The notes beneath the pieces are model-generated. The model saw nothing but the letters and a program-made list of their open reading frames with translations, made no database searches and had not been told where the DNA came from. 22,264 nt of DNA from a virus. The stretch covers positions 1 to 22,264 of the IMG/VR virus record IMGVR_UViG_3300021961_000707, one strand, 5' to 3'. The first letter of the stretch is position 1. Each line of letters starts with the position of its first letter. The translations under genes and the position numbers were made by a program. Shown piece by piece: positions 1-19,344 of this stretch.

Positions 1-1418
1 TCACCACAAGTAGTATCTACAATGTTAATAATCTCGGCAGACATGCATCCAGCCAAGACTACATTTATATATTCTTCACTGTTTATACCGCCAGAAGAAT
101 CATTCAATCTAAAAACATAAGTTCCACCACTCAGACCCGTGTAACTAGCGGTACCTGTAAAACCAACATATGGTGACAATGTGCCAGGAATATCATTATC
201 TAAAGTATATGGAGGAACACCTCCTGAAGGAGTTATTTCAATCACACCCCCATTCGGGTCGGCACATGTACCTGTGATTACAAAAGTGTAACTTAATGGG
301 TTACCTAATTCTGTAGAGGAAGGTGTTAGTGTTGGTGTTACCGTACTAGTTACAGTACTTGTTATCGTAGGTGTTGGTGTTACCGTACTTGTTACTGTAG
401 ATGTTGGAGTAGATGTATTTGTTGGGGTATATGTTGGTGTTGGTGTAGGAGTTTCTGTACTTGTTACAGTTGATGTTGGGGTAGACGTATTTGTTGGGGT
501 ATATGTTGGTGTAGGTGTTGGGGTATATGTCGGCGTTAATGTCGGTGTTGGAGTCGGAGATTGTGATACTGGAGGTGCCGAACAACAATCAAAACTATCT
601 ACATATGATGACGTACCATTTTCTTCACCATTATTTTTATAATAATATGTATATGTTAAAATACCAATTTGACTAGCTAATGCACAAACAGAATGCACAT
701 AAGTACCTGCAGTATCGTACTCAAATGATACTGGTGAACTATTACAATCAGTGTAGTAAATATAAACTTTACCATTTTCAGATGGGTTCGAATTACCCGT
801 AGCATCATCAATATCCTGTTGTGTAATTGTGACATCCAAATATCTACAAATACAAGTTGTTTCTGTTGGTGTGGGTGTTGGTGTAGGTGTAGACGTTGGT
901 GTCTGTGATGGACATGACAAAGATTCACTTGTAAGACAGGTTGTGCAATCACCATATGATGTAAATGTATCTAATGGATACCCCCAATTGTAGGTTGAGT
1001 ATGTATCGGGCTGAACTACAACAGTATAACATGTATTCTCAGGATTTAGACCTCCAGGACTATTAAGGTTCAAATAAACAACGTCACCAAGATTCCAAGA
1101 AATTACAGAACCTGTATTTATTCTCCAATTAGTTCCACCACAACAAGGCTCTAAATAATATTCAACATCACTACAATATTCAACGGATGTAATTTCACCA
1201 CCACCACCAGTAACCACATATATTACTGTACTTTCATTTGGGTCTTGATAGAAACCATCCGCAGTTGGACCAGCACATGTCAATCCACTATATAAAATTG
1301 TACCAACCTGAAGCACTGGAGTAATACTCTCATCATAAGAAAATGAGTCCATTACAGGTGCAGTACACGCTGTGACTTTGGAAGAGAAACTATAATTTAA
1401 AGTAAGACCACTACACAT
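1..1418 (-). CDS. Modular Cys-rich, Pro/Thr-linked tail fibre-like protein (C-terminus cut by window edge)
   Basis: An open frame runs from an ATG at 1418 to the left edge with no stop (472 codons seen). The start overlaps the stop of the upstream gene as TAATG, and no Shine-Dalgarno is visible. There is no signal peptide. Layout: a Cys-containing N-terminal region (residues 1-169), a short Ser/Thr/Pro linker (about 170-187), a Cys-flanked beta-rich module (about 188-280), a long Pro/Thr linker of TPTPTYTPTNTSTPT type (about 285-367), and a domain (about 370-460) with the pattern GGVIEITPSGGVPPYT, then LSGGTYVFRLND, which resembles the SprB repeat of flavobacterial gliding adhesins. Position at the end of the baseplate operon and the string-of-domains design suggest a virion surface fibre or host-contact protein; this is inference. 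Confidence is high that the gene is real, moderate for the role. Confidence 0.8.
   Translation of the reverse strand, partial: MCSGLTLNYSFSSKVTACTAPVMDSFSYDESITPVLQVGTILYSGLTCAGPTADGFYQDPNESTVIYVVTGGGGEITSVEYCSDVEYYLEPCCGGTNWRINTGSVISWNLGDVVYLNLNSPGGLNPENTCYTVVVQPDTYSTYNWGYPLDTFTSYGDCTTCLTSESLSCPSQTPTSTPTPTPTPTETTCICRYLDVTITQQDIDDATGNSNPSENGKVYIYYTDCNSSPVSFEYDTAGTYVHSVCALASQIGILTYTYYYKNNGEENGTSSYVDSFDCCSAPPVSQSPTPTPTLTPTYTPTPTPTYTPTNTSTPTSTVTSTETPTPTPTYTPTNTSTPTSTVTSTVTPTPTITSTVTSTVTPTLTPSSTELGNPLSYTFVITGTCADPNGGVIEITPSGGVPPYTLDNDIPGTLSPYVGFTGTASYTGLSGGTYVFRLNDSSGGINSEEYINVVLAGCMSAEIINIVDTTCG
318..565 (-). repeat. Pro/Thr low-complexity linker coding repeat
   Basis: This part of the fibre-like gene encodes about 83 residues almost only of Thr, Pro, Ser, Val and Tyr, as degenerate TPT/TYT/TVTST units. 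On the plus strand it reads as GGTGTT/GTTGGG-like repeats. A shorter linker of the same kind is at 861-912. Such linkers are usually extended and flexible and here separate Cys-bearing modules. Confidence 0.9.
379..522 (-). repeat. 72-bp imperfect direct repeat, two tandem copies
   Basis: Copies at 379-450 and 451-522 align with a 72-base (24-codon) period. A 20-base core is identical at 421 and 493. Differences are mostly at third codon positions, so the protein repeat is kept while the DNA has drifted. The period is a multiple of three, so copy-number change would keep the frame. Confidence 0.85.
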
Positions 1419-4390
1419 TAACTACAATATATCGTTATATCAATCCCCACATTTAATTGTAGAGTTTTATTAGTAAAGTCTGCCATACATCCCGTGTTAC
1501 TTACAGTAATTACTCCGTTAGTTATAGAATAGTTCAATCCCCACACATATAAATCAGAAAAATTAGAATTTAATCCATTAATCCATTGTTGGTCTGTTGG
1601 TGCGTCAGTGGCCGTATATCCAGTAAAGAAAGGTGTCTGAACCAATATATTATTATCTAATCTCAAATCCGTATACCAAATAGATGTAACAGAATTCAAA
1701 TCACACTGACTTGTAGTGTATCCACTTAATTGAATCAAACTATTAATTTGATTATACAATACTTGTTGGAAATTACTACCCGAAGTTTCTGATGTGGATT
1801 CTGTCCATGGATAAATACCACATTGAAGTGTTTGGTCGATGCAATCGTAACCAAAAAGTTGACCCTCTAAAGTACAAGGTATACAAGGAACAGGAACAAT
1901 CTCACAACCTCTTTGTCTTCTCCAAACAACCTTTTGTCTGTGGAACTGTGAGTTCTCAAAACGTGTACCCGTATTCCAAAGTGTTGATGCTGGAATCATC
2001 TGTTCAACCAAACGAACCCAATAGTTTCCAAGACCCAAAGTGAAATCAATCATCTTTTGGTATGTGTACTGATTTGAAGGTATGTTAACTGTTTGGTCTG
2101 ATTGTAGATAATTCCAATAAATTTGTTGCAGTGTTGGGTAACCACCACCTTTTCCATCATTAATCGTCTGTCTGTTTCTGACATTAATCATGTTCTTCCA
2201 AAACGTCTGAGCAAATTCAAAGAATGTCTTTTGTTTTGGATTTGGCTGAATTACAGTATTATCAATACCACCTTGACCTGTTGTCAATCCTGACGCAGGA
2301 ATTGGGTAGTTGTATTTTCTACTCATATCCCAAACATCATACTCCAAACCTTGACCCATATTCATGAATAGGTCTACGTTCTTGGCATTTAGAACAAGTT
2401 TTTCATTTGAAACTGCATAATATGCATTGAATCCGCCTTGTGTTTTTCTTAAACCAATTTCGTCATCAGTCCACGACTTTTTGTTATCTATTGTTTGAGT
2501 TAAATCAAAACCTAAAGTCATGTAAGGGAAACTTCTAAATCTATCAAAATACTTTTGTCCGTAAGTGTACGGTTGAAGTACTGTTTGAACATTAGGATTT
2601 TGCCCTGTAAATGTTGATTCAGTAACAATAGTATCTTGTTCAGCTCTATGTTTTGGAGTTTGTTCAAACCAACCTGAACCTTTTTCGAAGAAGTAGTCAT
2701 CTCCGTTAAATGGCGCTTTTGGATATCCTTGAGCATCCACAGGGTAATTTTCTAATTCGAAGTTTACGTCTTCAATTTCATAATCAATTGTAAATCCTGT
2801 ATATGTTACACCTTGAATCTTGTATGTATCTTCAGGGTCTAAGATTGGAACCACTTGACTGTATGTACCACCAGTTAATTGAACAAACTGTTCGGTAAAC
2901 TGTGTCATATTAATTTTTGAATCAGCTAAGTATATTGTCTCATTAAACTCAACAAGTGCTTGTGGTGCACCAACCATTCTCATTATAAACTCAACAGATT
3001 TTCTCGTACCTTTGGACCTAAATAACCAACCCGAATTAATAATAAGTTTTCTGTAGTATTCATAGTTCAACTCGCTCGGAGTCAAATCTCTTGTCATACC
3101 AGGATAAATTGACTGATTCTTCGTTCCAAACACCGAAGTAAGAAAGTCGTCATTTGTAATTGGCGAAATGTTTACTTGATAACCTAAAGTATATGCCAAA
3201 TTAACAAGAAGTTGTGATGGAATATCATCCTTCGGTACATAATTTACAGATGTAATGTATGCTAAAGCGTCAATGAACTTTTTAGTTTCATCATACGCCC
3301 TACCATAAATCTGAATTACTTTTTCAACTCTTTGGTCTTCGGTATCAAATTCTTTGAATGAACCTGTAATTAAAAATCTACTAATAAGATTTGTCTTGAA
3401 GCTATCTAAAGCAACGGCAACTTCATTAACTTGGTCAAGGTAACTATCAAATGCCCTTGTTCTAATATCCAAGTTCCATGTACCCTCTAACGGCCAAGTA
3501 ACTGTTTGGTTTGCAATATAAGTTTGTCCATTATCATTTTCTCTTGGATACTTGAAATATGCAGTATATCTTGGTGTAACCATTCTGTTGAGAAGGAATT
3601 TCTCAACCTCATCAAATGGTTCGTCAAAAGCAACTTCCGTTTCAAATAAATTAGGTCTTAATACTATTGGTAGTGTTGAAGATGAATTACCCGAGAATGG
3701 GTTACCCTCAACAACAATTTGTATTGTACCAGCACTTAAAGATGATGATGGGGTAAAGTCAATTATCTTATATTCAGTCTCAAAATCACCACTAATAAAC
3801 AAAGCATATTTTAGATATTCCCTTGTAAAGTTTCTAAGAGGTGAAAACTCAAATGGTCTAACAGATAAGTTTCTATCAGCATTTGTTGAGTAATCAATAT
3901 CAAATGGGTTTTTAAATCTGGTTACATCAATCTCTAATGTTGTTTCGTTTTCAACAACATTAAATGATATGTTGTTTGCAGTATTAGCCGTTGTATAGTC
4001 GTAATATATTTTGTCGACAACCAACCCCGCAGGAAAATAGTTGATTACTTTAATAATTGATACCTCAAGTCTTTTTGCTAGCGAACCATATAAAGAAAAA
4101 TTCGTTACATTTGAAATATCATAGTTAGGATAAACCGAATACTGTTTTGCTAATATTGCCCTTGATTGTTCAATATTATCAATGTTCAGTGTATCTAACG
4201 TAAATGGGTCTGAAAATACACCAATATCAAACCTTCTGTTTACCTTTTCGACAACAGAGGTTGTGAACTCAAAGTTAGCCTGAGTTAATCCACCCCCGTT
4301 TACAAGTTGAAAACCAACTAAATCGGGAGAGAATGTTTGGTCACCTGAGTTCGGTGCTGGTGGATACCTGTATTTCAGAGAGCTCGCCAT
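1418..4390 (-). CDS. Baseplate wedge protein with tail-protein-I-like segment
   Basis: A 990-residue protein whose start overlaps the preceding stop as TAATG. Residues about 355-480 show the arrangement known from tail protein I / Afp12-like wedge components: a helix with IYGRAYDETKKFIDAL, then DIPSQLLVNLAYTLGY, then YYRKLIINSGWLFRSKGT followed by RKSVEFIMRMVGAP. In the family this segment belongs to the wedge component that pairs with the gp6/J-like protein at the baseplate rim. The rest (1-340 and 490-900) is beta-rich and unassigned. Near the C-terminus is a Cys cluster (CEIVPVPCIPC, then YDCIDQTLQC). The length far exceeds that of P2 gpI and is nearer to T4 gp7 (about 1030 residues), so it may be the gp7 counterpart. 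Structural role likely; exact identity uncertain. Confidence 0.65.
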   Translation of the reverse strand: MASSLKYRYPPAPNSGDQTFSPDLVGFQLVNGGGLTQANFEFTTSVVEKVNRRFDIGVFSDPFTLDTLNIDNIEQSRAILAKQYSVYPNYDISNVTNFSLYGSLAKRLEVSIIKVINYFPAGLVVDKIYYDYTTANTANNISFNVVENETTLEIDVTRFKNPFDIDYSTNADRNLSVRPFEFSPLRNFTREYLKYALFISGDFETEYKIIDFTPSSSLSAGTIQIVVEGNPFSGNSSSTLPIVLRPNLFETEVAFDEPFDEVEKFLLNRMVTPRYTAYFKYPRENDNGQTYIANQTVTWPLEGTWNLDIRTRAFDSYLDQVNEVAVALDSFKTNLISRFLITGSFKEFDTEDQRVEKVIQIYGRAYDETKKFIDALAYITSVNYVPKDDIPSQLLVNLAYTLGYQVNISPITNDDFLTSVFGTKNQSIYPGMTRDLTPSELNYEYYRKLIINSGWLFRSKGTRKSVEFIMRMVGAPQALVEFNETIYLADSKINMTQFTEQFVQLTGGTYSQVVPILDPEDTYKIQGVTYTGFTIDYEIEDVNFELENYPVDAQGYPKAPFNGDDYFFEKGSGWFEQTPKHRAEQDTIVTESTFTGQNPNVQTVLQPYTYGQKYFDRFRSFPYMTLGFDLTQTIDNKKSWTDDEIGLRKTQGGFNAYYAVSNEKLVLNAKNVDLFMNMGQGLEYDVWDMSRKYNYPIPASGLTTGQGGIDNTVIQPNPKQKTFFEFAQTFWKNMINVRNRQTINDGKGGGYPTLQQIYWNYLQSDQTVNIPSNQYTYQKMIDFTLGLGNYWVRLVEQMIPASTLWNTGTRFENSQFHRQKVVWRRQRGCEIVPVPCIPCTLEGQLFGYDCIDQTLQCGIYPWTESTSETSGSNFQQVLYNQINSLIQLSGYTTSQCDLNSVTSIWYTDLRLDNNILVQTPFFTGYTATDAPTDQQWINGLNSNFSDLYVWGLNYSITNGVITVSNTGCMADFTNKTLQLNVGIDITIYCS

Positions 4391-7189: not shown

Positions 7190-8903
7190 CGATGAAGGGG
7201 TCTACAATATATTCAACCAAAGGTCTGTTTATGTTTCTATAGAATGAAGTTGGAACTTGTAGAAACAGTATGTCACTGAAAGGATAATGTGCGTCATTTA
7301 AAAATGGTGAATCAACTCCAACACCTTCCGTATCAATATACCCATACGGATACAAATCTCTCCACCTCCATTGTCTTTCAGTATTTGAATAAAAAGCCCA
7401 ATCAGGAATCAAATCCACAGTCTCTTTATCTCCAACTTCTATGTAAGTTGAGTAGGCTCTAATGGGTACCGAAAAATGTGGTTGATAGTAATATCCCGAC
7501 TCAAAATTTAATGGAGATGAATTTGTAAATAATAGTGGGTTGTATGAGAACTTATGTACCATATTAGATAACACAGTCTCAGTCATAGAAAAATCATTCC
7601 ACTCACAAAAATCACCAGAAATAATATCACCAACATTTAAAGAATCGTTGTAATAAAAAGTTCTTCCTGAAAAATTATAAAAAGAGGTTTTTAAACCTAA
7701 ATCTTTATTTGTAGGACTTGAACTGTCCCACCAAATATCATCTTTACCGTCAAGGAAATTCATATCCCAACCAATTAATAATCCCGGATATCCATTAGCA
7801 TATGGCTTATTGAAATAACCCATGTACCCTTTTTCTATTATGGTTACAAATAATTCTGAAAGTGGTCTCCCTTGATTATCTAATAATAATGAAGTATCAA
7901 TATCTTTTGTAATGGTAAATCCGCAAGTTTGACTTCCGTCTTTAACTGAAATTCTTGTTACACCATTAGGTGTTAATGCTGAGTATTCAACTTGTTTTCT
8001 ATTACTAAAGGCATTGTTTTCAAAACCAAGTTTTGTTAAATCATATTCAGATTCTGATGTTAATATTTTGTGTCTTCTCACATAATACTGAGATGTTGTT
8101 TCACCCGTATTATTAATATCCAAAACTCTTTTAAACGTACCTGTAGTGTTATCTGTTAAGGCTGTGTACCCAATATTATAAATTGAAAATATTTTCTCAT
8201 CTGAACCATAATATTGGTCTCCGAGCGATTCAACCTGAAAGTAATTTGTTCCGTTTGATGTTACTGACAATTCGACGAATTCACCAATCTGTAAGTTGTG
8301 TGGTACACCACAATAAAATGTTACTAAAGATTTACCATCAGGATTTGTATTTTTAATTACAAAAGGAACACCATCACCCGCTTGGAAATATGTTACAGCA
8401 GAAAACTGAGTGTTTTCATACCTCATCTGTTGTTGACTATCACCACTTACAGGGTACGAAACGTATATATTCCAATTGTACGTAGATGCACTTTTATTGT
8501 AAAATGGAATATGACCAGGTATTCCTGTAGTCCTGTAAAAAGTAAATTCATCAAATTGAACGTATCCTTTCCACGCATTAATCTGTGGTGGATTTTGATT
8601 TGAATTTATTGTTTTTGCTTCAACACCGTTTATATAATATAAGTTATTACCAAAAGGAGTATAAGAAGTAGAACCTGTAACACCATTATCAAAAATATTA
8701 ACTATTTTTCCACCAATCCTAAAAACGTTACTTGACTGTCTTTCTTCTTCAAATTGACTTGTCTGAGATAAATAAACATTTCTATCACCTTCAATGATTT
8801 CCCTACCTTGTGACTCCAACGGTACCTGAATAAGGTAATCCTGTTCAGGTGCCCCTTTGAATCTATCCTGATTCCTTATTATTCTAACCTCGCCTAAACT
8901 CAT
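7176..8903 (-). CDS. Unrecognised baseplate-operon protein, 575 aa
   Basis: No family is recognised. The protein starts MSLGEVRIIRNQDRF and is rich in Tyr, Phe, Asn and Gly, with a beta-rich pattern typical of phage structural proteins. A striking aromatic segment is LLIGWDMNFLDGKDDIWWD, and around residue 431 is GDFCEWNDFSMTETVLSNM. No signal peptide or membrane segment. Its start overlaps the stop of the 1652-residue gene by 4 bases (ATGA), and it is the only gene of the set with a clear Shine-Dalgarno (GAGGA at 8910-8914). By order it sits where T4 has gp8, and it could be a wedge subunit, but I see no diagnostic motif. Confidence 0.75.
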   Translation of the reverse strand: MSLGEVRIIRNQDRFKGAPEQDYLIQVPLESQGREIIEGDRNVYLSQTSQFEEERQSSNVFRIGGKIVNIFDNGVTGSTSYTPFGNNLYYINGVEAKTINSNQNPPQINAWKGYVQFDEFTFYRTTGIPGHIPFYNKSASTYNWNIYVSYPVSGDSQQQMRYENTQFSAVTYFQAGDGVPFVIKNTNPDGKSLVTFYCGVPHNLQIGEFVELSVTSNGTNYFQVESLGDQYYGSDEKIFSIYNIGYTALTDNTTGTFKRVLDINNTGETTSQYYVRRHKILTSESEYDLTKLGFENNAFSNRKQVEYSALTPNGVTRISVKDGSQTCGFTITKDIDTSLLLDNQGRPLSELFVTIIEKGYMGYFNKPYANGYPGLLIGWDMNFLDGKDDIWWDSSSPTNKDLGLKTSFYNFSGRTFYYNDSLNVGDIISGDFCEWNDFSMTETVLSNMVHKFSYNPLLFTNSSPLNFESGYYYQPHFSVPIRAYSTYIEVGDKETVDLIPDWAFYSNTERQWRWRDLYPYGYIDTEGVGVDSPFLNDAHYPFSDILFLQVPTSFYRNINRPLVEYIVDPFIDGCE

Positions 8904-11900
8904 AGTATTTCCTCATTGAATATATATTTGTTTATATACTTATTCATCGCAGATTTACCAACTCTAAGACCAAAATAAAAATGGTAAGGTGAACCAACAC
9001 CAACAGCAGGTGGTGGTGGATATAAATAAGAATTTGGTGTAATTGTAGGATTTACCCCACCAGTAGATGACGAGTTATATATAAACCCAGGTCTTTCAAA
9101 TGTTGGTGTAACAACACTCGATGGGAATGTTGGTTGACCTGACGCTATGTTACCACCCAACAGTCTATCAACTGATTGGTATTTGTAAGTGTAAATCTGT
9201 GATGGTACACTATTTTTGATTTGCCAATCATTAATCTGTGAACCAAATATTAAATTACTATTGTTTTGTATTTGCCACGGCCAATACGGTACTTGTTGGT
9301 CTTCAAACCCGTAATAGTTAGTTAAATAAATTATTGTATTATCCGCAAATGTAGTTCTACCAGGTGTAATTAAATCTCTGTTTTCTGTGTTAGCCGAGAA
9401 GAAAACACCCAAAACAGGTCCTTGACCTGTCTGATAGTATTTAATTTGACTTTGAGAATAGTTGTCACCCAAGTATGGTGTAACACCAAACTCAGAGTTA
9501 ATACTCAACAATTGTGTAACATCACCATCTAATCTTTGTTTTGGTCTTGAGAACAACTGACCTATTGATGAATCACCTGCGTTTAGAACTTGTTCCCAGA
9601 AATTAGCATCCGCAAGTCTACTAATAACAAACAATTGTAAAATGTCTGAAGTGTCATTATAAGAAGTTGTAGGAATCTTATTTATAATGAATCCCTCGTA
9701 ATCAGGGTTAAATGTAATCTCTTTGATGAATTGGTCTCTTGGTCCCAAATCAATCATAGTTGTTGGGCTGCCTAATAGTCTTTTGTTACTCGCATCATAC
9801 AATTCATCATTAGTATTTAATGGTGGTGTTTTACCAATGAAAATATTTCCATTGTATGGTGAGCTACGGTAGAAGAATGAGTTATTAGTTTCTTTAAAAA
9901 CGATAGTATCTGTACAGTATCTGTAAGTCGTATCTGAGTTAAATGTTGCCGCTGAGAATGGTGCCAAATACAAAGTATCTTTTTGAAAAGAATACATGTA
10001 TAATGAACCATTAATCCAGTTGTTTACGAACGTAAGTGATATAACATTTCTACATAACGCAAACATCATTCTAAATCTTGACCTCCATTCAAAGAATGTT
10101 GTTATATCTTTTCCAATTGTGGAAAAAGCCGGTCTTTGTACTAAATAATAACAACCACCATATATTTTTTTGATGTCATCTTCTTTATCAAAATAATAAC
10201 AATCATCGGTAGTCACCGCAACTCCAAAGTTTTCACCATCACCTGTGTAACACTTAAGGGGTACCATCCCTTCACAACTGAATGTTTGAATGATATTAGC
10301 AGCAACACTACCAGCATCTTCCAAGAAGTCGTCAGCAGCTTCGTTTGAGTTGTCACTTCCAACATTGTAGGTTGGTGTTACTTGTTCAGCCAAACCACTG
10401 TCACTAATAGCATAAACTGCAAAATTTTTGTTTTGATGTAAAACAAATCTTCTATCATGAGTATCTGATGTTGGTAATCTATCAGACCTCATAACTATCC
10501 TTGTGGTATTAGACATGGCTAAAGTATCTGTGGGATATTGAGTGAAATAAGTTGGAGAGTAATAGAAATAATCATTTCTACTTGGATTACCCGAACCACC
10601 ATTACACAACATCATAGTACCACCTTCAATTATTTCATTGTTTTTGTAACCGTTTTTAAAACCTGACGAATTGGTTGAGTTAACCATTTTGTTACCGCTA
10701 TTCTTAGTCGCTAAAGCACCACTAACAGTATTGAAATTGCTGATTGAGCCGGCAGTACCAGAACCAACTTTAGGGTTGTTAGAATCCAAACAAGAATAAT
10801 CTAAATGGTTTTTTGTTGCAAATGTTTGGTAATTTGTTCCAACCGTAAATGTGTAACTACCAAAAAACAAATAACCATTATTATTTGCTCCGTTATTAGT
10901 TATTAAATTGTGTCTTGGTAGCGTGTAGTTTACGGAGTTATACTTTTGAATAGGGACATTCATTTTATAGTTACCTCTCACTGTTGGTCCAGTACCAAAT
11001 GATTTACCATATAATGGTGATAAATCAAAAATAGTATCCTGTCTATCAGTATACATGTCAACACCCCTAACTAAAAAGACTACTATGTGATTCTTATATT
11101 CTGCATTAAGTTGGAAGTTTGGTACGTTGTATTTGAATTTTTCCGTACCTGAAGAATCTGGATAATCATCCGGATTATCACCACCACCTTTACTCACTCT
11201 TTGGTATCCAAATATGAATCTATTAATCAATTTATCATTACCGAATCCGTATGTTGTTGGTATGTTTGATACCCCTGCGAGTTGTATATAATCTTGTATT
11301 GTTGATGCCGTGATTACCTGATAATACTCAACATCTGACGGATACAGATATTTGTTTTTTAACTCATTTGTGGAACCTGTAATCTCATAAACCGTAGCAC
11401 TGTTTGAACTTAGGTTTGATGGGTTCATATAATTTACCGTTGCGTAGTAAGTAGTACTTGTAATTGACGTACCTGTTGTACCCCCACTTACGTTTGGGTC
11501 TGCTGAATTGGCAGTATTTTGGAAAGATATTACTCTACCCGTTTGTAACGCATCTTGACTTTCAGGGTCACATAACAAAACCAAAACATTGTCATAGTGA
11601 AACTTACCAGAGTTTAACGGTGACGATGGATTTACACTTACCTTAACTTTATTTTGTGCATTGTCAGCATGATACTTAGCTTTGACATTGAACAGGTTCA
11701 TTCTTTCAGATAATGTTAAATCCCACGACCAAGTTTTGTAATTGGTGTATGGATTACCATCATCATTGTTATCATCCATAAAAGGAGATTTTGTCCAAAC
11801 TGAATTATCTACACCGTTATCGAAACCTGACATTGTAGATTGGAAACCATAAACATATTTTGATTGCCAAGTAGTATCAACTTCACTACCATTAAGACCA

Positions 11901-13858
11901 ATCACTTGTTCAAAAAACAAATAGTCAGTTGAGTTAACTAATAAACTATTATTTGGTGAAGGTGTTGTATCATTTTGAGTAACGACATCACGACTTTCAC
12001 AGTTACACATATCACAGTCAGGATATGACATATTAGGTAAAGGAATCGCAGTTAATGGACAAGTTTCGCTAATATTGACTAACTGCCATTTAGGACAATT
12101 TAATTTTAACAAACCAAACGATAATGCCTTTACAACATTACATAGAATAATCAAAGCACTTAGAAGAACAGTACCAACAACATTAATGATTACTCTTAAG
12201 ATTGGCCAAAGAATACATATAATATTTGATAAGAATATTAAAGTAATAATTGTTGGAACTAAAAGAGTTAATAATATATTGAATAGGAAATATAATAAGT
12301 CAAAATTCCTAACCCCATCGTTTACAGGGAACTTATTATTTTCAGACTCACAACTTCTATCAAGAATTTCTTTAATACCTAAAAATCTTGCTCTACCACT
12401 ACCTTTTCTATAATCCTCAATAAATTGTGACGTAGTATAAACTTTATTATACTTCATCAAATAGAAAAAATCTTCACAATTAATTGCAGCTTGTTTGTCA
12501 GCATAATCATTCCAATCTAATGAAAACGCATAACTTTTTTGGAATAATTGCCAGTTAGTATTTCCTGTATAGTTCGGGTCATAATATGGACTATTATCTT
12601 TTGCATATAATGCCGGGTCAACACCGGGGTTTGTTGTTGTAGCACCTGTCCATCCATATTCTCTAATATTTGGTACTAAAAAGTTGGCTCTTTGTATTTC
12701 ACCCTGAATTGGTATTAGGGTATTACCCTCCCTAAGTGGTCCGTTTTGTTGTGACTGATACTTAATTTTAAATCTATATTTACCCTTTGTTGGGATACCA
12801 ATTCTTGGGTCTCTTGAATAAACTAATTCACCATATTCATTTGTAACAACATAGTCTAAGTTCATCGGCACATCACAAACAAACGTACCGTCCTCATCTA
12901 TAACTTTACCACCATTTGCAAGTCTAAATTGCTCAAGGATAGGATTACCATTTTCATCAGAATTTACAGTCTGTCTAATCGCTAATATTTCACCAGGACC
13001 GGTAACCATCCCACACAAATCACCTTGTTCAGTTTTTGGTTTACAATTTTTCTTTAACATCTGAGCATCCTGTGAACTCATAATTGAACCCATGAATACC
13101 GCAGTTGGTTGAATCTCAATACCTAATTCTCTTAGGTCAAAATCGGCACGAGTAATTCCTATACTACATTGTGAACCGTCACCCCAAAATGAAGTCACGT
13201 TTACATCTTTCTTAGCATTAATAATTTGAGGAAGTGAGTCCAAATCCTCAGATGCCCTAAACTGTACACCATCAAATTGCTCCGCAGTTGCAAGACCCAT
13301 TCTAATCAAATCCGCAGGTCTTAAAGAGAACTCACCTATGTTTGATAGGTCTAAGTCCATTGTGAGTGTCTGTATACCCAAAGGGACACCTACAATCATA
13401 AAGTCACCAGACTCATTTGTTTTAACCGTATACTTGTAATACTTTTCGTATATTTCAAGTACCTCACTACGAGTTAGTAAGTCTTCACGAGTTGGGAATG
13501 TTCCTGTTGGTGTATGTCCCCCATATTCCTGATTATATGGTAATAAATTATAACGATATCCGTCTTCATTTTTTTCAGCGGGACTTTTGTAAGGATAAAG
13601 TGCAGATATTACAGGATTTAATAAATCTTCATCATCCACTGGTACAAACACAGAAACACGTACATTTGGAACACCAAATCCGCCATTGGCAACAACACGA
13701 CCGACTATCACACCATAATCAGCACAAAAACGAGTATAGACATCTCCTTGAGAAAGTTTCATTGATAAGATTTCCAAAAAGTCGAAATCTTGTTCTACAT
13801 TCAGTTGCAAAGTTTGGTCTACTCCTAATTGTGTACGTAGTCTGTATGATTTAGGCAT
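8900..13858 (-). CDS. Giant baseplate-operon protein with Ig-like N-terminus and internal hydrophobic segment
   Basis: A 1652-residue protein directly downstream of the gp6-like gene, the place of gp7 in T4 (about 1030 residues), but no clear gp7 similarity is visible. Residues about 48-172 look like a carboxypeptidase-regulatory/Ig-like sandwich (VGRVVANGGFGVPNVRVSVF, then TNESGDFMIVGVPLG); a second similar unit with IDEDGTFVCDVPMNLDYVV lies at about 285-370. Residues 519-586 are almost wholly hydrophobic (LLYFLFNILLTLLVPTIITL and onward, broken only by R555 and K577), long enough for two or three membrane helices, and are followed by a Cys cluster (C588, C600, C615, C618, C620). More Cys occur later (CEGMVPLKC; DDCYYF; GGCYYL). 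The C-terminal half is Asn/Tyr-rich and beta-like. A large structural protein is likely; membrane interaction is inference. Confidence 0.8.
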   Translation of the reverse strand: MPKSYRLRTQLGVDQTLQLNVEQDFDFLEILSMKLSQGDVYTRFCADYGVIVGRVVANGGFGVPNVRVSVFVPVDDEDLLNPVISALYPYKSPAEKNEDGYRYNLLPYNQEYGGHTPTGTFPTREDLLTRSEVLEIYEKYYKYTVKTNESGDFMIVGVPLGIQTLTMDLDLSNIGEFSLRPADLIRMGLATAEQFDGVQFRASEDLDSLPQIINAKKDVNVTSFWGDGSQCSIGITRADFDLRELGIEIQPTAVFMGSIMSSQDAQMLKKNCKPKTEQGDLCGMVTGPGEILAIRQTVNSDENGNPILEQFRLANGGKVIDEDGTFVCDVPMNLDYVVTNEYGELVYSRDPRIGIPTKGKYRFKIKYQSQQNGPLREGNTLIPIQGEIQRANFLVPNIREYGWTGATTTNPGVDPALYAKDNSPYYDPNYTGNTNWQLFQKSYAFSLDWNDYADKQAAINCEDFFYLMKYNKVYTTSQFIEDYRKGSGRARFLGIKEILDRSCESENNKFPVNDGVRNFDLLYFLFNILLTLLVPTIITLIFLSNIICILWPILRVIINVVGTVLLSALIILCNVVKALSFGLLKLNCPKWQLVNISETCPLTAIPLPNMSYPDCDMCNCESRDVVTQNDTTPSPNNSLLVNSTDYLFFEQVIGLNGSEVDTTWQSKYVYGFQSTMSGFDNGVDNSVWTKSPFMDDNNDDGNPYTNYKTWSWDLTLSERMNLFNVKAKYHADNAQNKVKVSVNPSSPLNSGKFHYDNVLVLLCDPESQDALQTGRVISFQNTANSADPNVSGGTTGTSITSTTYYATVNYMNPSNLSSNSATVYEITGSTNELKNKYLYPSDVEYYQVITASTIQDYIQLAGVSNIPTTYGFGNDKLINRFIFGYQRVSKGGGDNPDDYPDSSGTEKFKYNVPNFQLNAEYKNHIVVFLVRGVDMYTDRQDTIFDLSPLYGKSFGTGPTVRGNYKMNVPIQKYNSVNYTLPRHNLITNNGANNNGYLFFGSYTFTVGTNYQTFATKNHLDYSCLDSNNPKVGSGTAGSISNFNTVSGALATKNSGNKMVNSTNSSGFKNGYKNNEIIEGGTMMLCNGGSGNPSRNDYFYYSPTYFTQYPTDTLAMSNTTRIVMRSDRLPTSDTHDRRFVLHQNKNFAVYAISDSGLAEQVTPTYNVGSDNSNEAADDFLEDAGSVAANIIQTFSCEGMVPLKCYTGDGENFGVAVTTDDCYYFDKEDDIKKIYGGCYYLVQRPAFSTIGKDITTFFEWRSRFRMMFALCRNVISLTFVNNWINGSLYMYSFQKDTLYLAPFSAATFNSDTTYRYCTDTIVFKETNNSFFYRSSPYNGNIFIGKTPPLNTNDELYDASNKRLLGSPTTMIDLGPRDQFIKEITFNPDYEGFIINKIPTTSYNDTSDILQLFVISRLADANFWEQVLNAGDSSIGQLFSRPKQRLDGDVTQLLSINSEFGVTPYLGDNYSQSQIKYYQTGQGPVLGVFFSANTENRDLITPGRTTFADNTIIYLTNYYGFEDQQVPYWPWQIQNNSNLIFGSQINDWQIKNSVPSQIYTYKYQSVDRLLGGNIASGQPTFPSSVVTPTFERPGFIYNSSSTGGVNPTITPNSYLYPPPPAVGVGSPYHFYFGLRVGKSAMNKYINKYIFNEEIL
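8909..8914 (-). promoter_or_regulatory. Shine-Dalgarno site of the 575-residue gene
   Basis: Minus-strand GAGGA is followed by AATACT and the ATG at 8903, a six-base spacing. Most other starts in the window have only A/T-rich leaders. The site lies inside the end of the upstream gene, so it may restore initiation at a four-base overlap. Confidence 0.6.
11980..12310 (-). other. Hydrophobic membrane-like segment plus Cys cluster within the giant baseplate protein
   Basis: This part encodes residues 517-626. A stretch of some 65 residues is nearly all Leu, Ile, Val, Phe, Thr and Ser with one Arg and one Lys, then CPKW and the cluster CDMCNC. The flanking segments are soluble in character. It could form two or three transmembrane helices or a buried hydrophobic hairpin. 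Confidence 0.75.
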
Positions 13859-13929: not shown

Positions 13930-15768
13930 TTAAGAGAAATCGACTGTCTTCAGATTCTTAATTCTAACCTTAATGTCCTTATTAGGGAATCTAACTTGGT
14001 AAATCTGTGATGGTTCTGCAAAAATAGTGTCATCAATTAATAAAATCTCTTTAGTTGCACTATTAGCATATCTCTGTGAAGTTTCAGATGAAGAGTACTG
14101 TCCACCTACTTTATTGAACACTTTTAAGTCTGTTACCGATATAACACCAGCCACGTCTTGTACTTGGCTTCTGATTTCTGATATGAATACATTACCACCC
14201 ATCTCTCTAAACACAGGACTCATAAGTGTTTGTATTTTATCAATTACTCTTGTAATAACTTCACCTTGGTTTTGGGCTGCATCTACAACCACTGAAATAT
14301 CAAATTCTAAATCAATAACTTGAGCGACATTAATTGAAATATAGTCATTAATCATTCTATAATTTGACAAGTAGTTTGCTAAGTTTGTTTTCAAAGTATT
14401 TGATACTGTTTGAGTTAACGAACCCGTCGAATCATAAGACACAATATTGATATTAATTTTGTTGTCTTGTTCTGTAATAGCCACTTTAGCAGGTGCCCCA
14501 AACTTACCAGGCATTTTTCTAATTAATGCGTAGTAGTCATTAACGGTTACCGCTCTGTTTTGTGATGCGAAGTTGAACGTAACCATGTTTCTTACTTCTT
14601 CTATATTTGGTTGGTTAGCACCACCAATTGCAGCAGTCACGTTATTAACTCTCAACGAGTTCACCACCTGTTGGTTAATATTAGCCGAAGGTCCGTTTAC
14701 AAAGAAGTTAACAGTTCCAATTTGATTGATTGTGTTTACACCGATGTTAGAAACAGTTCCTCCACCGACTCTATATTGAACAAACAATGTCGTGTTTGCT
14801 TTTACTGTTTTACCTAAACCAATATTGTTCTGATAATCTTGTATTCTTAAAGGGACACCAGTTCTTGAGAACTGAGCTAATTGGTCGTCAGCGGTTACTG
14901 TAGCATTACCAAACTGAACTCTTAAGAAACCTTCAGGTGTATATTCGGTAATAAATCTTAATTCAGTTTCAATGTATCTACCGACCTTGATACCGGGTCT
15001 GTCTGCTGGTTTTGTAGGGTCTTCAATAAAAACTCTACTTTCGGCTAACGAATCAACTTCAAACCATCTATCAGGTGAGTTGATAAATTCAGAATACGTT
15101 GGGATAGACTGGAATGATGTTCCGTCTTTTTGAATAACAGATGTTACACCTATAATGTTTTTTTCAGGTAAGAAAAATTCAAAGAATGGTTTGATGTCTG
15201 CCGGTGTTATTACTTTTTTGTAAACCTTAGTAATACCGTTTACTACCACTTCCCTTTTAGTAATTGTATAGTTTAACAACTTACCATTTGAATCAAAGTT
15301 AGGTATTTTGGTTTGGTTTGGGTATCCTTCACTGTTATATTGTGATGAGAAATCAATATCGAAAACATTTTCAAATGTTTGTCCCGCACCGACTACTTGA
15401 GAACCCGCTCTTAAAATACCTAAGTATCTTGTGTCTTCTTGGTCACCGAAGGCAGGTACTGTAATGGCAAAGTCACAAAGAGCAACCGATGGTCTATTAC
15501 CGGGTATCTTTAAACCGTAGGTTCTGGCAATGTTAAAGATAGATGAACGTTGTTGAGCGTATTGAAGAACTGTTTCTTGAATACTTCTATCCATGTGATA
15601 ATGTAAGTTATCACCGATAGCTGCGTTCAAATCTAAAAATACTGAATAAACTGAAGCGTCATTGAAGTTATCAATTAGTTCAGGATAATACTGTTGAGTG
15701 TAATTAATGAGGTCCTGACGTAGTGATTCAAAGTCTCTGTCTGCGTATGATATTCTTCTTTGTGCCAT
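13930..15768 (-). CDS. gp6-like baseplate wedge protein (baseplate J family)
   Basis: A 612-residue protein (T4 gp6 is 660). The N-terminus ISYADRDFESLRQDLINYT, followed by DASVYSVFLDLNAAIGDNLHY and QYAQQRSSIFNIARTYGLK, matches the T4/cyanophage gp6 pattern in which each wedge protein starts with a helical region around DFE..R..LI. The middle and C-terminal parts carry baseplate-J-like blocks: NMVTFNFASQNRAVTVNDYY, RKMPGKFGAPAKVAITEQ, and near the end REMGGNVFISEIRSQVQDV with GVISVTDLKV. In T4 a gp6 dimer joins neighbouring wedges into the ring around the hub. It starts 5 bases after the gp25-like gene with no Shine-Dalgarno. Family assignment is firm. Confidence 0.88.
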   Translation of the reverse strand: MAQRRISYADRDFESLRQDLINYTQQYYPELIDNFNDASVYSVFLDLNAAIGDNLHYHMDRSIQETVLQYAQQRSSIFNIARTYGLKIPGNRPSVALCDFAITVPAFGDQEDTRYLGILRAGSQVVGAGQTFENVFDIDFSSQYNSEGYPNQTKIPNFDSNGKLLNYTITKREVVVNGITKVYKKVITPADIKPFFEFFLPEKNIIGVTSVIQKDGTSFQSIPTYSEFINSPDRWFEVDSLAESRVFIEDPTKPADRPGIKVGRYIETELRFITEYTPEGFLRVQFGNATVTADDQLAQFSRTGVPLRIQDYQNNIGLGKTVKANTTLFVQYRVGGGTVSNIGVNTINQIGTVNFFVNGPSANINQQVVNSLRVNNVTAAIGGANQPNIEEVRNMVTFNFASQNRAVTVNDYYALIRKMPGKFGAPAKVAITEQDNKININIVSYDSTGSLTQTVSNTLKTNLANYLSNYRMINDYISINVAQVIDLEFDISVVVDAAQNQGEVITRVIDKIQTLMSPVFREMGGNVFISEIRSQVQDVAGVISVTDLKVFNKVGGQYSSSETSQRYANSATKEILLIDDTIFAEPSQIYQVRFPNKDIKVRIKNLKTVDFS

Positions 15769-15773
15769 TTACA

Positions 15774-16238
15774 TTAAATATTGATAATAACAAAATCCTT
15801 ACTATCGAAGGTACTGTCTGTTATAGTATAGTCAATTCTGATTTTAGCTGTATAGTCGGCAACACCTGTTCCCGGTACTCTATAAATACCACTCACACCA
15901 ATTTGACTCATATTTAGGTCACCAATCAATTCAAGTTCTTCCGTATATGGTGTAATCGTAATATCATTCAAAACTAAATTTGGTAAAAATTCATCAACCG
16001 CCTGTCTAATATCTGCCTTGATTGCTTCGAACGATAAACCATCCATAGGTTCAAAAATGAACTCATATATTCTTGTACCAAAATTTGGTAAATAATATCT
16101 ACTACCCTTTCTTGTTAAGATAAGGTGTAATAAATCTGTTCTTATCTCTTCCTCAGGAGTTTGAGATAATGAAAGGTATTTTCCATCCTGACTTTGTCCA
16201 AAAGGAAAATTAATACCATATGTTTTACCATCCGCCAT
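15774..16238 (-). CDS. gp25-like baseplate wedge protein
   Basis: A 154-residue protein using the ATG at 16238 (MADGKTYGINFPF). The frame could be read from a TTG at 16277, but that lies in the terminator's T-tract and adds a Lys/Ile-rich tail unlike the family, so I reject it. The block LTRKGSRYYLPNFGTRI (residues 41-57) followed by EFIFEPM matches T4 gp25 (TTRKGSRPFDPEFG); the family also includes TssE of type VI secretion. Gp25 joins the wedge core to the first sheath ring. The family's EPR motif is not intact: the aligned residues 85-87 read LPN. It is the first gene after the terminator and is directly followed by gp6, as expected for the wedge core. T4 gp25 is 132 residues, so this one is slightly longer. 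Confidence 0.88.
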   Translation of the reverse strand: MADGKTYGINFPFGQSQDGKYLSLSQTPEEEIRTDLLHLILTRKGSRYYLPNFGTRIYEFIFEPMDGLSFEAIKADIRQAVDEFLPNLVLNDITITPYTEELELIGDLNMSQIGVSGIYRVPGTGVADYTAKIRIDYTITDSTFDSKDFVIINI

Positions 16239-16275
16239 ATTACATAAATATATTCCTATTATTTTTTTTAGAAAC
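16239..16275 (-). promoter_or_regulatory. Candidate promoter/leader for the late baseplate operon
   Basis: A promoter is expected here because a strong terminator stands upstream and a new gene block starts downstream. The minus strand has TATATTTA (a 7 of 8 match to the Bacteroidota TAnnTTTG box) about 22 bases after a TTTG that lies in the terminator T-tract. Spacing is slightly long and the DNA is very AT-rich, so a chance match is plausible. No T4-type TATAAATA box is present. Confidence 0.25.
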
Positions 16276-16308
16276 AAAAAAACCCGACAACTTATTTGTC
16301 GGGTTTTT
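16276..16308 (-). terminator. Intrinsic terminator after nrdA
   Basis: The stem CCCGACAA (16283-16290) pairs perfectly with TTGTCGGG (16296-16303) around a 5-base loop. On the minus strand it is followed by seven T residues (complement of the A-tract 16276-16282). It starts about 27 bases after the nrdA stop. A five-T run on the plus strand makes it potentially bidirectional. It separates the DNA-metabolism genes from the baseplate genes. Confidence 0.92.
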
Positions 16309-16334: not shown

Positions 16335-18041
16335 TTATGCTTCACAACTCGTGCAAACTAAATCATTTAGATTAAGTTTTTTTCTTGCGAAAGCCTGAGC
16401 CGAATTCATTGAGTGTTGATAGTACAATGTTTTAACTCCAAGTTGCCATGCGTCCATAAGAAGTTTGTTAACATCTTTTGTTGGCATATCAGGTGAAATC
16501 ATCAAGTTTAAAGATTGTGCTTGGTCAATAAAATCCTGTCTAACAGCCGCTTGGTTAATGATTGCTGACTGATTAATTTCAGCAAAAGTTCTAAATACTG
16601 CCTTTTGTTCGTCAGATAAGAAGTCCAAATGTTGAACTGAACCATCTTGTTTTTTAATACTGTCCCAAGTTGCTTTAGTGTCTTTTTTCATTGATGCCAA
16701 TAACTTTTGAAGAACAGGGTTCTTAATGGTTACTTTCAATTTAGCCACGTCTTTAACATATGCGTTAGACCAAATAGGTTCAATCGATTGAGATACTTGA
16801 CCCAAAATAAACGCTGATGATGTAGTAGGTGCAATTGCGTTTAATGTAACGTTTCTTCTACCATACCCAACTAAAGTTTCAGGTTCACCAAACATCTCAG
16901 CCAATTTAGACGATGCATCATATGATTTATCTCTAATCAATTTGAAAACTTCAATGTTTAATTTTGCACTATCCTTACTATCAAATGGTAATCCTTTAGA
17001 TTGAAGTAGTGAGTGCCATCCTAATACTCCCAAACCAAGTGCTCTTTGTCTCTTAGCGAAGTTGTATGCTTTTTCAAGGTAGAAAAATGCTCTCTGACCT
17101 TCAATGGTACCACTGTTTCGGATGTCATCAATTTTGCTGATAAACTCTGTTACAACAGCATCAAGGAAATATACCATCATTTCTACTGCGTCGGTGTCTT
17201 TCCACTCATCATAATGAAGTAAGTTCATAGATGACAATACACAAACAAAAGACTCTTCTTCTGAATTGTGAAGTGCAATTTCAGAACAAAGATTCGAATT
17301 GTAAATTTTCATTCCTTTGTCTCTATAAACTTCAGGTGCTTTTTTATTCATTGTGTCAGTGAACATGATATATGGGTAACCAATTTCACCTCTACGTTGA
17401 ATTACTTTTGCCCAAATAGCTCGTTTCTCTTTGTCACCATTAACCATCTGTTCCATAAATTCATCAGTAACAGTCACTGCGTGTGTTAAATCTTGAATTG
17501 GGAATCCTTCCGTACCGATTTCCAAGAACTCCATAATATCAGGATGTTCTACTGGTAGGTATGGTGAAAATCTACCTCTACGTGTTGAACCTTGTGAAAT
17601 ATTATCCACAACACTTTGGAACAAGTTCATAAAGTGAACTGCACCGGGAGCATGTCCGTTGTCTGTAATTTTAGCACCTCTACCACGAATGTTACCAAAG
17701 TAACCTGAGGTACCTCCACCCATTTTACTCATTTCACCAACTTCTGCTTGTGTGTATAAAATTGACTCAATATTGTCACCCACATTAGAACCAAAACAAC
17801 TTACAGGTAATCCCCTTTTCTTACCAAAGTTAGCCCAAACAGGTGATGATAATGAATACCAACCACGCCCCATATAATCATAGAACTTGTCAGCAAAACC
17901 ATCAATACCCAAGATTTTCTCGGCATGTTCTGCAATTGTTTTAATTCTTTCTAAGGGTTCTTCTCCCTCACTCAAATATCCTCTACGAAGAAATGTAATT
18001 GACTCTTCGTTAATCCAATCAAAAGGTTCTCTATTTTCCAT
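16335..18041 (-). CDS. nrdA: Class I ribonucleotide reductase, alpha (large, catalytic) subunit
   Basis: A 568-residue protein that reduces ribonucleoside diphosphates to deoxyribonucleotides with the beta subunit encoded upstream. Key residues by motif: the redox Cys C82 in GLPVSCFGSN, the active-site set N250-C252-E254 in NSNLCSEIALHN, the partner Cys C267 in FVCVLSSMNL, the radical-transfer pair Y540-Y541 in KTLYYQHSMN, and a C-terminal C563-C566 pair (CTSC) for re-reduction. It is much shorter than E. coli NrdA (761 residues) mainly because the N-terminal ATP-cone is absent: the protein opens directly with MENREPFDWI. The ATP-cone is instead on the beta subunit. It begins 19 bases after nrdB and ends at a strong terminator, so the two are co-transcribed in the order nrdB-nrdA. 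Confidence 0.95.
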   Translation of the reverse strand: MENREPFDWINEESITFLRRGYLSEGEEPLERIKTIAEHAEKILGIDGFADKFYDYMGRGWYSLSSPVWANFGKKRGLPVSCFGSNVGDNIESILYTQAEVGEMSKMGGGTSGYFGNIRGRGAKITDNGHAPGAVHFMNLFQSVVDNISQGSTRRGRFSPYLPVEHPDIMEFLEIGTEGFPIQDLTHAVTVTDEFMEQMVNGDKEKRAIWAKVIQRRGEIGYPYIMFTDTMNKKAPEVYRDKGMKIYNSNLCSEIALHNSEEESFVCVLSSMNLLHYDEWKDTDAVEMMVYFLDAVVTEFISKIDDIRNSGTIEGQRAFFYLEKAYNFAKRQRALGLGVLGWHSLLQSKGLPFDSKDSAKLNIEVFKLIRDKSYDASSKLAEMFGEPETLVGYGRRNVTLNAIAPTTSSAFILGQVSQSIEPIWSNAYVKDVAKLKVTIKNPVLQKLLASMKKDTKATWDSIKKQDGSVQHLDFLSDEQKAVFRTFAEINQSAIINQAAVRQDFIDQAQSLNLMISPDMPTKDVNKLLMDAWQLGVKTLYYQHSMNSAQAFARKKLNLNDLVCTSCEA

Positions 18042-18060
18042 GTTTCTTAAATAATTCTTA

Positions 18061-19344
18061 TTAAAATAAATCGTTCATCGTTATCGATTTTGATTTTTTG
18101 CTATAATTGATACTTCTTTTATTGAAGAAATCAGTATGTTTTGTTGTTAAAATTTCATCATCAAACCACTCAGTTGTTTCCAACAAAGGTTGGTTGATTT
18201 CAAAAATATTATCAATACCGATAGCGTTCAAAGAAGTATTAAATCTATGCTTGATGAATTCTAAAGTTTGTGCTTTTGACAAGAAAGTCAAGTCACCCAT
18301 CTCAAAAATCCAATCAACTATATCTTTTTCTGCTTCGTATGCTTCTTTGGTGGACTGAATCAAATCTTCAACCAACTCATCTGTCCACCATGATGGGTTT
18401 TCTTTTTTTATAATGTTAACCAAATCAAAACCAAACTCAGCGTGAATGTTCTCTTCTTTTGATGTTGCTTCTACAGCGTTACTAATACCTTTTAAAACAT
18501 TTTTGTGTTTGTTAAATGACATGATAACCAAGAACTGTGAAAACAATGAAACGTTTTCTACAAACATAGAAAATAAAACAACAGATTCAAAATAGTCCTG
18601 ACTTTCTACAGACTTAGAATTTGTGATTGTCTTTTCCAAATATTTGATTCTTCTACGAATTGCTGGTACTTCCAACAGATTTTCAAACTCACCATTCAAT
18701 CCAAGAAGTTGGATAAGGTGTGAGTACGCATCTGCGTGTCTAACTTCTGATTCAGCGAATGTAGCCCCAACGTTTCCAATTTCAGGTTTTGGTAATCTCT
18801 TGTAGATATCACCCCAAAATGTTTTTACCGCAATTTCAATTTGTGAAATAGCTAACATTGCTCTTTGTACTGCCGCTTGTTCTTTTTCTGACAAGTGTAC
18901 TTTGAAGTCTTGAATATCAGATGTAAAATTAAATTCAGTGTGAACCCAATATGAGTGTCTAATAGCATCCACATATTCAACCAATTCAGGGTATTCGTAC
19001 GGTTTCAAATTAGTTCTTTTATTGAAGATGTTTGGTCTGTGTTTTGAACGGTAGATGATGTATTCTTTTGCAACATCGTTCAATCCATTATCCATAAGTT
19101 TATTCTCCACCATATCATGGATTTCATCCACGTGTGGAACTCTGTCTTTATCTCCTTTGAAGATACTCTTTGTTGTTAGTCTAGCGATTTTATCTGCCAT
19201 TTCTTCATCAACCTTTCCAATCGATGCCATTGCCTTCACAATCGCCCTTTTAATCTTTTCAGATTCAAATAAGACTGTTTCACCGCTTCTTTTTACAACA
19301 TATCGGTGGTCCTTTAGTGCCATACTAAAAATGTAATTATCCAT
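18061..19344 (-). CDS. nrdB: Class I ribonucleotide reductase, beta (radical-generating) subunit with N-terminal ATP-cone
   Basis: A 427-residue protein. Residues about 12-100 form an ATP-cone (VVKRSGETVLFESEKIKRAI; EIHDMVENKLMDNGL; AKEYIIYRSKH), the allosteric nucleotide-binding domain usually found on NrdA. The ferritin-like body follows with likely metal ligands E170 (ISQIEIAV), E200 and H203 (ESEVRHADAY), E263 (FVENVSLF), E298 and H301 (EENIH), and Y207 at the place of the radical tyrosine. The C-terminus (Y414, then TMNDLF) would dock on NrdA. Beta subunits with an ATP-cone are known from Bacteroidota such as Leeuwenhoekiella blandensis, where dATP binding drives formation of an inactive beta oligomer. 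Same control is inferred here. Metal type (Fe or Mn) cannot be told from sequence. It starts 11 bases after the helicase gene, behind an A/T-rich leader. Confidence 0.94.
   Translation of the reverse strand: MDNYIFSMALKDHRYVVKRSGETVLFESEKIKRAIVKAMASIGKVDEEMADKIARLTTKSIFKGDKDRVPHVDEIHDMVENKLMDNGLNDVAKEYIIYRSKHRPNIFNKRTNLKPYEYPELVEYVDAIRHSYWVHTEFNFTSDIQDFKVHLSEKEQAAVQRAMLAISQIEIAVKTFWGDIYKRLPKPEIGNVGATFAESEVRHADAYSHLIQLLGLNGEFENLLEVPAIRRRIKYLEKTITNSKSVESQDYFESVVLFSMFVENVSLFSQFLVIMSFNKHKNVLKGISNAVEATSKEENIHAEFGFDLVNIIKKENPSWWTDELVEDLIQSTKEAYEAEKDIVDWIFEMGDLTFLSKAQTLEFIKHRFNTSLNAIGIDNIFEINQPLLETTEWFDDEILTTKHTDFFNKRSINYSKKSKSITMNDLF

Follow-up and report, generated by a model that had tools for sequence, protein, structure and literature searches.

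A long membrane-type helix in an exchangeable cassette of a giant putative baseplate protein of uncultured T4-like phages

Can a protein of a phage baseplate carry a segment that is built for a membrane, and what would such a segment do? The question is raised by a 22-kb viral record (22,264 nucleotides, analysed at its full length and termed the window), which encodes a giant protein of 1652 aa. Residue numbers refer to this protein. It is only partly understood how phages with contractile tails hold, seal and cross host membranes, and hardly any part of a phage baseplate has been documented as embedded in a membrane. Among the papers covered by a literature search, none dealt with membrane segments of this kind in phage baseplate proteins.

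Gene neighborhood and phage type

The giant protein (8900..13858, minus strand) is encoded directly after genes for two baseplate wedge proteins, and this synteny is found in relatives. The first is a gp25-like protein at 15774..16277 on the minus strand (PF04965, E = 3.3e-11; phrog_261, E = 6.6e-17), and the second is a gp6-like protein of the Baseplate_J type at 13930..15768, also on the minus strand (phrog_219, E = 2.1e-17; PF04865, E = 7e-4, just below the cut-off). From reading the sequences, helicase and ribonucleotide reductase genes are located upstream of the gp25/gp6 block. For the giant protein itself, a Pfam search at E = 0.1 returned no family, the PDB gave no sequence match, and the single PHROG match is weak (0.015).

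Among the relatives, a gp23-type capsid protein is above the cut-off in four of the five large records, and a tail sheath match with E of 8.4e-6 or less is found in all five, in one of them above the curated cut-off. These matches indicate T4-like phages with a contractile tail. The tail sheath open frames of L553, L554 and records G001, G003 and G005 have chain lengths of 940–1201 aa; T4 gp18 is shorter.

The giant gene is in the position of T4 gene 7, i.e. directly after gp25–gp6 in a T4-like gene order. An earlier note on this DNA had called the product a baseplate wedge protein. The gene position agrees with this, but a profile or fold link to gp7 is absent: hhalign comparisons of T4 gp7 with the family sets A2 and A3 gave less than 1% probability, and there was no PDB match. 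We infer a wedge or periphery protein of the baseplate, from the position after gp25–gp6 only.

The gpI-type motif (R..I..a..l..KGT..ai....G) was not placed in the giant protein. A 990-aa open reading frame at 1418–4390 (minus strand) carries RKLIINSGWLFRSKGTRKSVEFIMRMVG, a pattern presumably typical of gpI/gp7 proteins, and the best local hhalign match of P2 gpI, although not significant, is found there. This 990-aa open reading frame, and not the giant protein, may thus be the gp7-type wedge protein and the true gp7 counterpart, in which case the giant protein may be an additional wedge protein.

T4 gp7 is a monomer in solution before it becomes part of the wedge, and is present in six copies per tail (PMC3004832). 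The statement in the earlier note that wedge proteins are normally soluble has to be qualified, since the T4 gp7 record (NC_000866) itself reads "C-terminus is predicted integral membrane domain". The hydrophobic stretch of gp7 is, however, about 20 residues long (positions 886–908), and its 60-residue mean hydropathy of 0.32 is far below that of the segment described next.

The hydrophobic segment

The KD19 hydropathy is above 1.4 throughout residues 518–588 (window 12095–12307, minus strand), and its maximum in the rest of the giant protein is 1.31. The best 60-residue mean KD is 2.15; 2000 shuffled versions reached at most 1.43 (mean 0.67, sd 0.18). The description of residues 519–586 as almost free of charge is borne out, as D520, R555, K577 and K585 are the only charged residues. 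There is also the room for membrane helices that had been proposed: a biological-hydrophobicity scan predicts two candidate spans within the segment, at 525–543 (−1.4 kcal/mol) and 556–574 (+0.3 kcal/mol), and none elsewhere in the protein. The segment therefore displays what is looked for in an integral membrane protein, i.e. an uncharged hydrophobic span of at least 19 residues with a favourable insertion energy.

A continuous helix with a polar stripe

Two AlphaFold runs with different alignments (residues 1–645 and 472–1652) predict one continuous helix at residues 521–579 (window 12122..12298, minus strand), with a pLDDT of about 73–88. In both models the helix is outside of any beta or globular domain. 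Thus neither run buries the segment in a globular domain, an outcome that the earlier note had named as evidence against its proposal. The mean pLDDT of the models (77 and 75 overall) is too low to trust contacts.

Along residues 521–580 the hydropathy oscillates at 101 degrees per residue and its phase hardly drifts; none of 500 permutations reached this periodicity. Polar and small residues are concentrated in one heptad register (0.47 on the stripe versus 0.17 off it, in 73 of 75 relatives; column-permutation p = 0.005). In the window protein the stripe consists of N527, T531, N545 (His is usual here), C548, P552, R555, N559 and C573. A distant clan, represented by L156 (40% identical to the window protein over the segment stretch), has a stripe of its own with a period of 102 degrees (p about 0.01), and its residues N503 and N510 are invariant in 59 of 59 sequences. 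A small/polar heptad stripe on a hydrophobic helix, the pattern looked for in an oligomeric bundle, is thus seen in two distant clans.

A polar stripe on an otherwise greasy helix appears to be an "inside-out" coiled coil. This inverts the arrangement in soluble coiled coils and is the one found in membrane helix bundles. Heptads of polar residues and Gly favour the association of membrane helices (PMC1190194).

A helix of 59 residues far exceeds one bilayer, and the segment could instead be a hairpin broken at the WPILR turn. The AlphaFold predictions and the continuity of phase favour a continuous helix.

Conservation of the segment in relatives

No relatives of the giant protein were detectable in cultured phage records by tblastn with three queries; viral contigs of uncultured phages hold hundreds of them. 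Distinct sequences that cover the N-terminal core (N-core, see below) and exceed 640 residues number 289. Of these, 287 reach a mean KD of 2.0 or more over 20 residues at the segment position, and the highest value elsewhere in any of them is 1.88; L157 and L159 are the two that fall short. In further contigs, L475 is also without the segment, and it is weaker in L517 and L547 (1.93 and 1.89). Homologues without the segment, which the earlier note had named as a second outcome against its proposal, are therefore rare. One to three spans are predicted at the segment, and none elsewhere, in all 95 complete relatives examined.

Columns 521–554 are nearly charge-free in 77 relatives despite wide sequence divergence. 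Residues that recur in these 77 representatives are N527, T531, T/S534, H545 (Asn in the window), W/Y551, P552, R/K555 and C573. Identity to the window protein is 60%–80% in the flanks and about 30% in the segment, with hydrophobicity maintained. This is the reverse of the prediction that the segment would be conserved while its flanks diverge; its letters diverge faster than those of the flanks. Between the window protein and its closest relatives the dN/dS of the segment is 0.05–0.06, and the replacements are hydrophobic residues or Thr. Since dN/dS is low and hydrophobicity is steady while the letters diverge, selection appears to preserve the hydrophobic character and not the exact sequence.

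Segments fall into a short class (about 56–94 residues) and a long class (100–138 residues), the latter with an apparent third helix. The classes alternate among close relatives and swap at least 11 times on the tree of the flanking N-core.

The interpretation in the earlier note is thus partly supported: the membrane-like character of the segment is backed by its retention in nearly all relatives, by the predicted long helix outside of globular domains and by the inside-out heptad. The gp6 neighbor matches Microcystis phage Mel-JY01, Flavobacterium phages (immuto) and a 484-kb uncultured phage, and the genes downstream of gp6 in these are without such a segment.

An exchangeable cassette

The giant protein can be divided into three parts. 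The N-core (residues 1–520; 12299..13858, minus strand) is the best conserved part and has a carboxypeptidase-regulatory-like beta domain of the transthyretin/CnaB type. It is followed by a cassette (residues 521 to about 1255; 10094..12298, minus strand) made up of the helix, a Cys motif and a variable middle domain, and by a C-terminal core (C-core, residues ~1256–1652; 8903..10093, minus strand) that co-evolves with the N-core. The Cys motif, P608–E621 (11996..12037, minus strand), has the consensus PMxSYPDCxxCxCE, and C615, C618 and C620 are nearly invariant in the main clan. In the window protein these residues form the cluster CDMCNC, which starts about 27 residues after the segment and not directly after it as had been described.

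Residues 501–520 are identical in the window protein, L017, L027 and L032, and the entire N-core of L017 is 93% identical to that of the window. Past residue 520 identity drops to ~35% at 521–551 and ~17% at 552–580, with the same break in the DNA. Codon 520/521 is thus a sharp recombination junction, and on its 5′ side the exchangeable block begins with the helix. At the other end, identity between the window protein and L007 remains low until roughly residue 1250, recovers from ~1261 and is 0.78–0.84 thereafter.

In L157 and L475 the N-core is joined straight to the C-core, and the helix, Cys motif and middle domain are all absent. Partial correlations of identity matrices are 0.76 between N-core and C-core, 0.66 between helix and Cys region, and a weak 0.15 between middle domain and helix. 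Judged by these sequence comparisons, the helix, the Cys motif and the variable domain appear to act as one cassette that is swapped between phages. In several hundred related sequences a membrane-type helix is thus nearly obligatory and yet exchangeable, and the relatives without the cassette are natural controls.

PF13620 is found in the N-core of 19 of 77 relatives (best E = 6.7e-5), and the N-core also weakly resembles pilin CnaB-like folds. When the profiles and members of family sets A2, A3 and A4 were searched against Pfam, PHROGs and the PDB, PF13620 for the N-core was the only match, and a Foldseek search of residues 472–1652 against the PDB gave no match below E = 0.79. A further N-core relative is A0A8S5LA66, an uncharacterised protein of Myoviridae sp. 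ctPuP5 that is known solely as a metagenomic prediction (38% identity over ~480 columns; Foldseek E = 3.5e-45).

Proposed role and alternatives

The hydrophobic helix, its near-universal hydrophobic character, the polar heptad stripe and the cassette behavior are observations. The reading we prefer, tentatively and with a probability of about 0.4, is that of a membrane-active module: a T4-like baseplate protein with an inserted cassette whose hydrophobic helix self-associates and inserts into the host membrane. The N-core and C-core would form a soluble structural core, with the cassette placed between them. The position and composition of the stripe support its being a self-association face, and thus a candidate homo-oligomer interface, with the remaining faces of the helix meeting an apolar environment. 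We infer that this environment is a lipid bilayer.

The most speculative part concerns the order of events. Because virions have to remain in solution, the free particle would need some way to mask the helices. They would then be freed when the baseplate rearranges on the host, and would associate with one another, six of them if T4 gp7 is a guide to the copy number. The associated helices would insert into the host envelope, anchoring or sealing the baseplate around the penetrating tube. The sequence data suggest that the tails of these T4-like phages may be able to engage a cell membrane directly.

An extension of this proposal, which we consider unlikely, is that six or more of the long helices, joined through their Asn/Thr/His/Gly stripes, form a ring or pore that spans the membrane and surrounds the tail tube, and that the cassette is tuned to the host. 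Were it true, a membrane channel or seal in the host envelope would be encoded by the baseplate itself.

A serious alternative is that the helix is permanently buried as part of a hydrophobic core of the assembled baseplate, packed on neighboring subunits and never in lipid. Tail proteins can have hydrophobic helices without being membrane proteins; the one in T4 gp7 is shorter, and that wedge protein is monomeric in solution (PMC3004832). The continuous helix phase agrees with burial, as does the tight co-evolution of N-core and C-core, which is expected for one rigid assembly. The relatives with these tightly coupled cores have one, two or three predicted spans, which is hard to reconcile with a transmembrane topology that is fixed and leaves burial a live option; a stable polytopic topology of the segment is doubted for the same variation in span number. 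However, in length and hydrophobicity the segment far exceeds that of gp7 (60-residue mean 2.15 versus 0.32), and with all faces except the stripe hydrophobic, a large enclosing partner surface would be required. Its divergence also outpaces that of the whole upstream part, and the flank tree shows at least 11 switches between length classes, which is unusual for a buried core, and the flanking core domains occur without the helix in L157 and L475.

A helix this hydrophobic is normally targeted for membrane insertion as it leaves the ribosome, and this would fit a third explanation, an assembly tether that holds the protein, and with it the nascent baseplate, at the inner membrane of the host, as in type VI secretion and thylakoid injection systems. 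The flanks also have the usual sign for such a topology, with a mean net charge of +2.8 after the helix and −1.0 before it, and the C-terminal value above the N-terminal one in 65 of 77 relatives. Anchoring has been demonstrated for Cis13 in the thylakoid system, tCIS (PMC8894136). A tether is nevertheless rather improbable: tailed phages must come free at lysis, and no cleavage site or protease was identified. With coupled cores and a varying number of spans, the C-core and N-core could moreover be on opposite sides of the membrane in some relatives.

Large proteins often have short hydrophobic runs, but an ordinary run or a frame error is a very remote explanation and was rejected, as shuffles never came near the observed value, 287 of 289 relatives keep the segment and its dN/dS is ~0.05.

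Comparison with known systems

Three known proteins bear on the membrane-active module proposed here. Tape measure proteins of tailed phages are virion proteins with hydrophobic, putatively membrane-active helices tied to DNA delivery. They sit inside the tail tube, whereas the giant gene is in the baseplate block and its product has a folded, beta-rich core. T4 gp7 shares with the giant protein the slot after gp6, a predicted membrane domain and the status of a large wedge protein; it differs in the lack of profile similarity and in its short, less hydrophobic segment near the C-terminus.

In the thylakoid contractile injection system of Anabaena, the tail-fibre protein Cis13 has a C-terminal transmembrane helix that anchors the machine (PMC8894136). 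The likeness, drawn from descriptions of the two proteins, is that of a membrane helix in a tip protein of a contractile tail-like machine, and the Cis13 helix is experimentally needed for proper anchoring. Cis13 is, however, trimeric and tail-fibre-like with a single C-terminal helix, while the giant protein is a much larger phage protein whose segment is internal, longer and exchangeable.

Other observations

L156 is a Prochlorococcus single-cell contig. Between its gp6 and giant genes there is a 137-aa open reading frame (9579–9992) with a very hydrophobic stretch (KD20 = 3.17) and a leading MGCDTCKQK. L160, a Cytophagales MAG contig with chromosomal-looking genes, has a remote N-core relative at its edge and could represent a prophage or an injection system.

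The ribonucleotide reductase genes of the window are at 16335–19344 (minus strand). A 427-aa open reading frame within this region resembles an NrdB with an N-terminal ATP-cone-like stretch, an arrangement that occurs in some Bacteroidota. At the other end of the window, an open reading frame of at least 472 aa (3–1418, minus strand) has long, linker-like PTPTPT/TSTPTSTVTST repeats and runs off the window.
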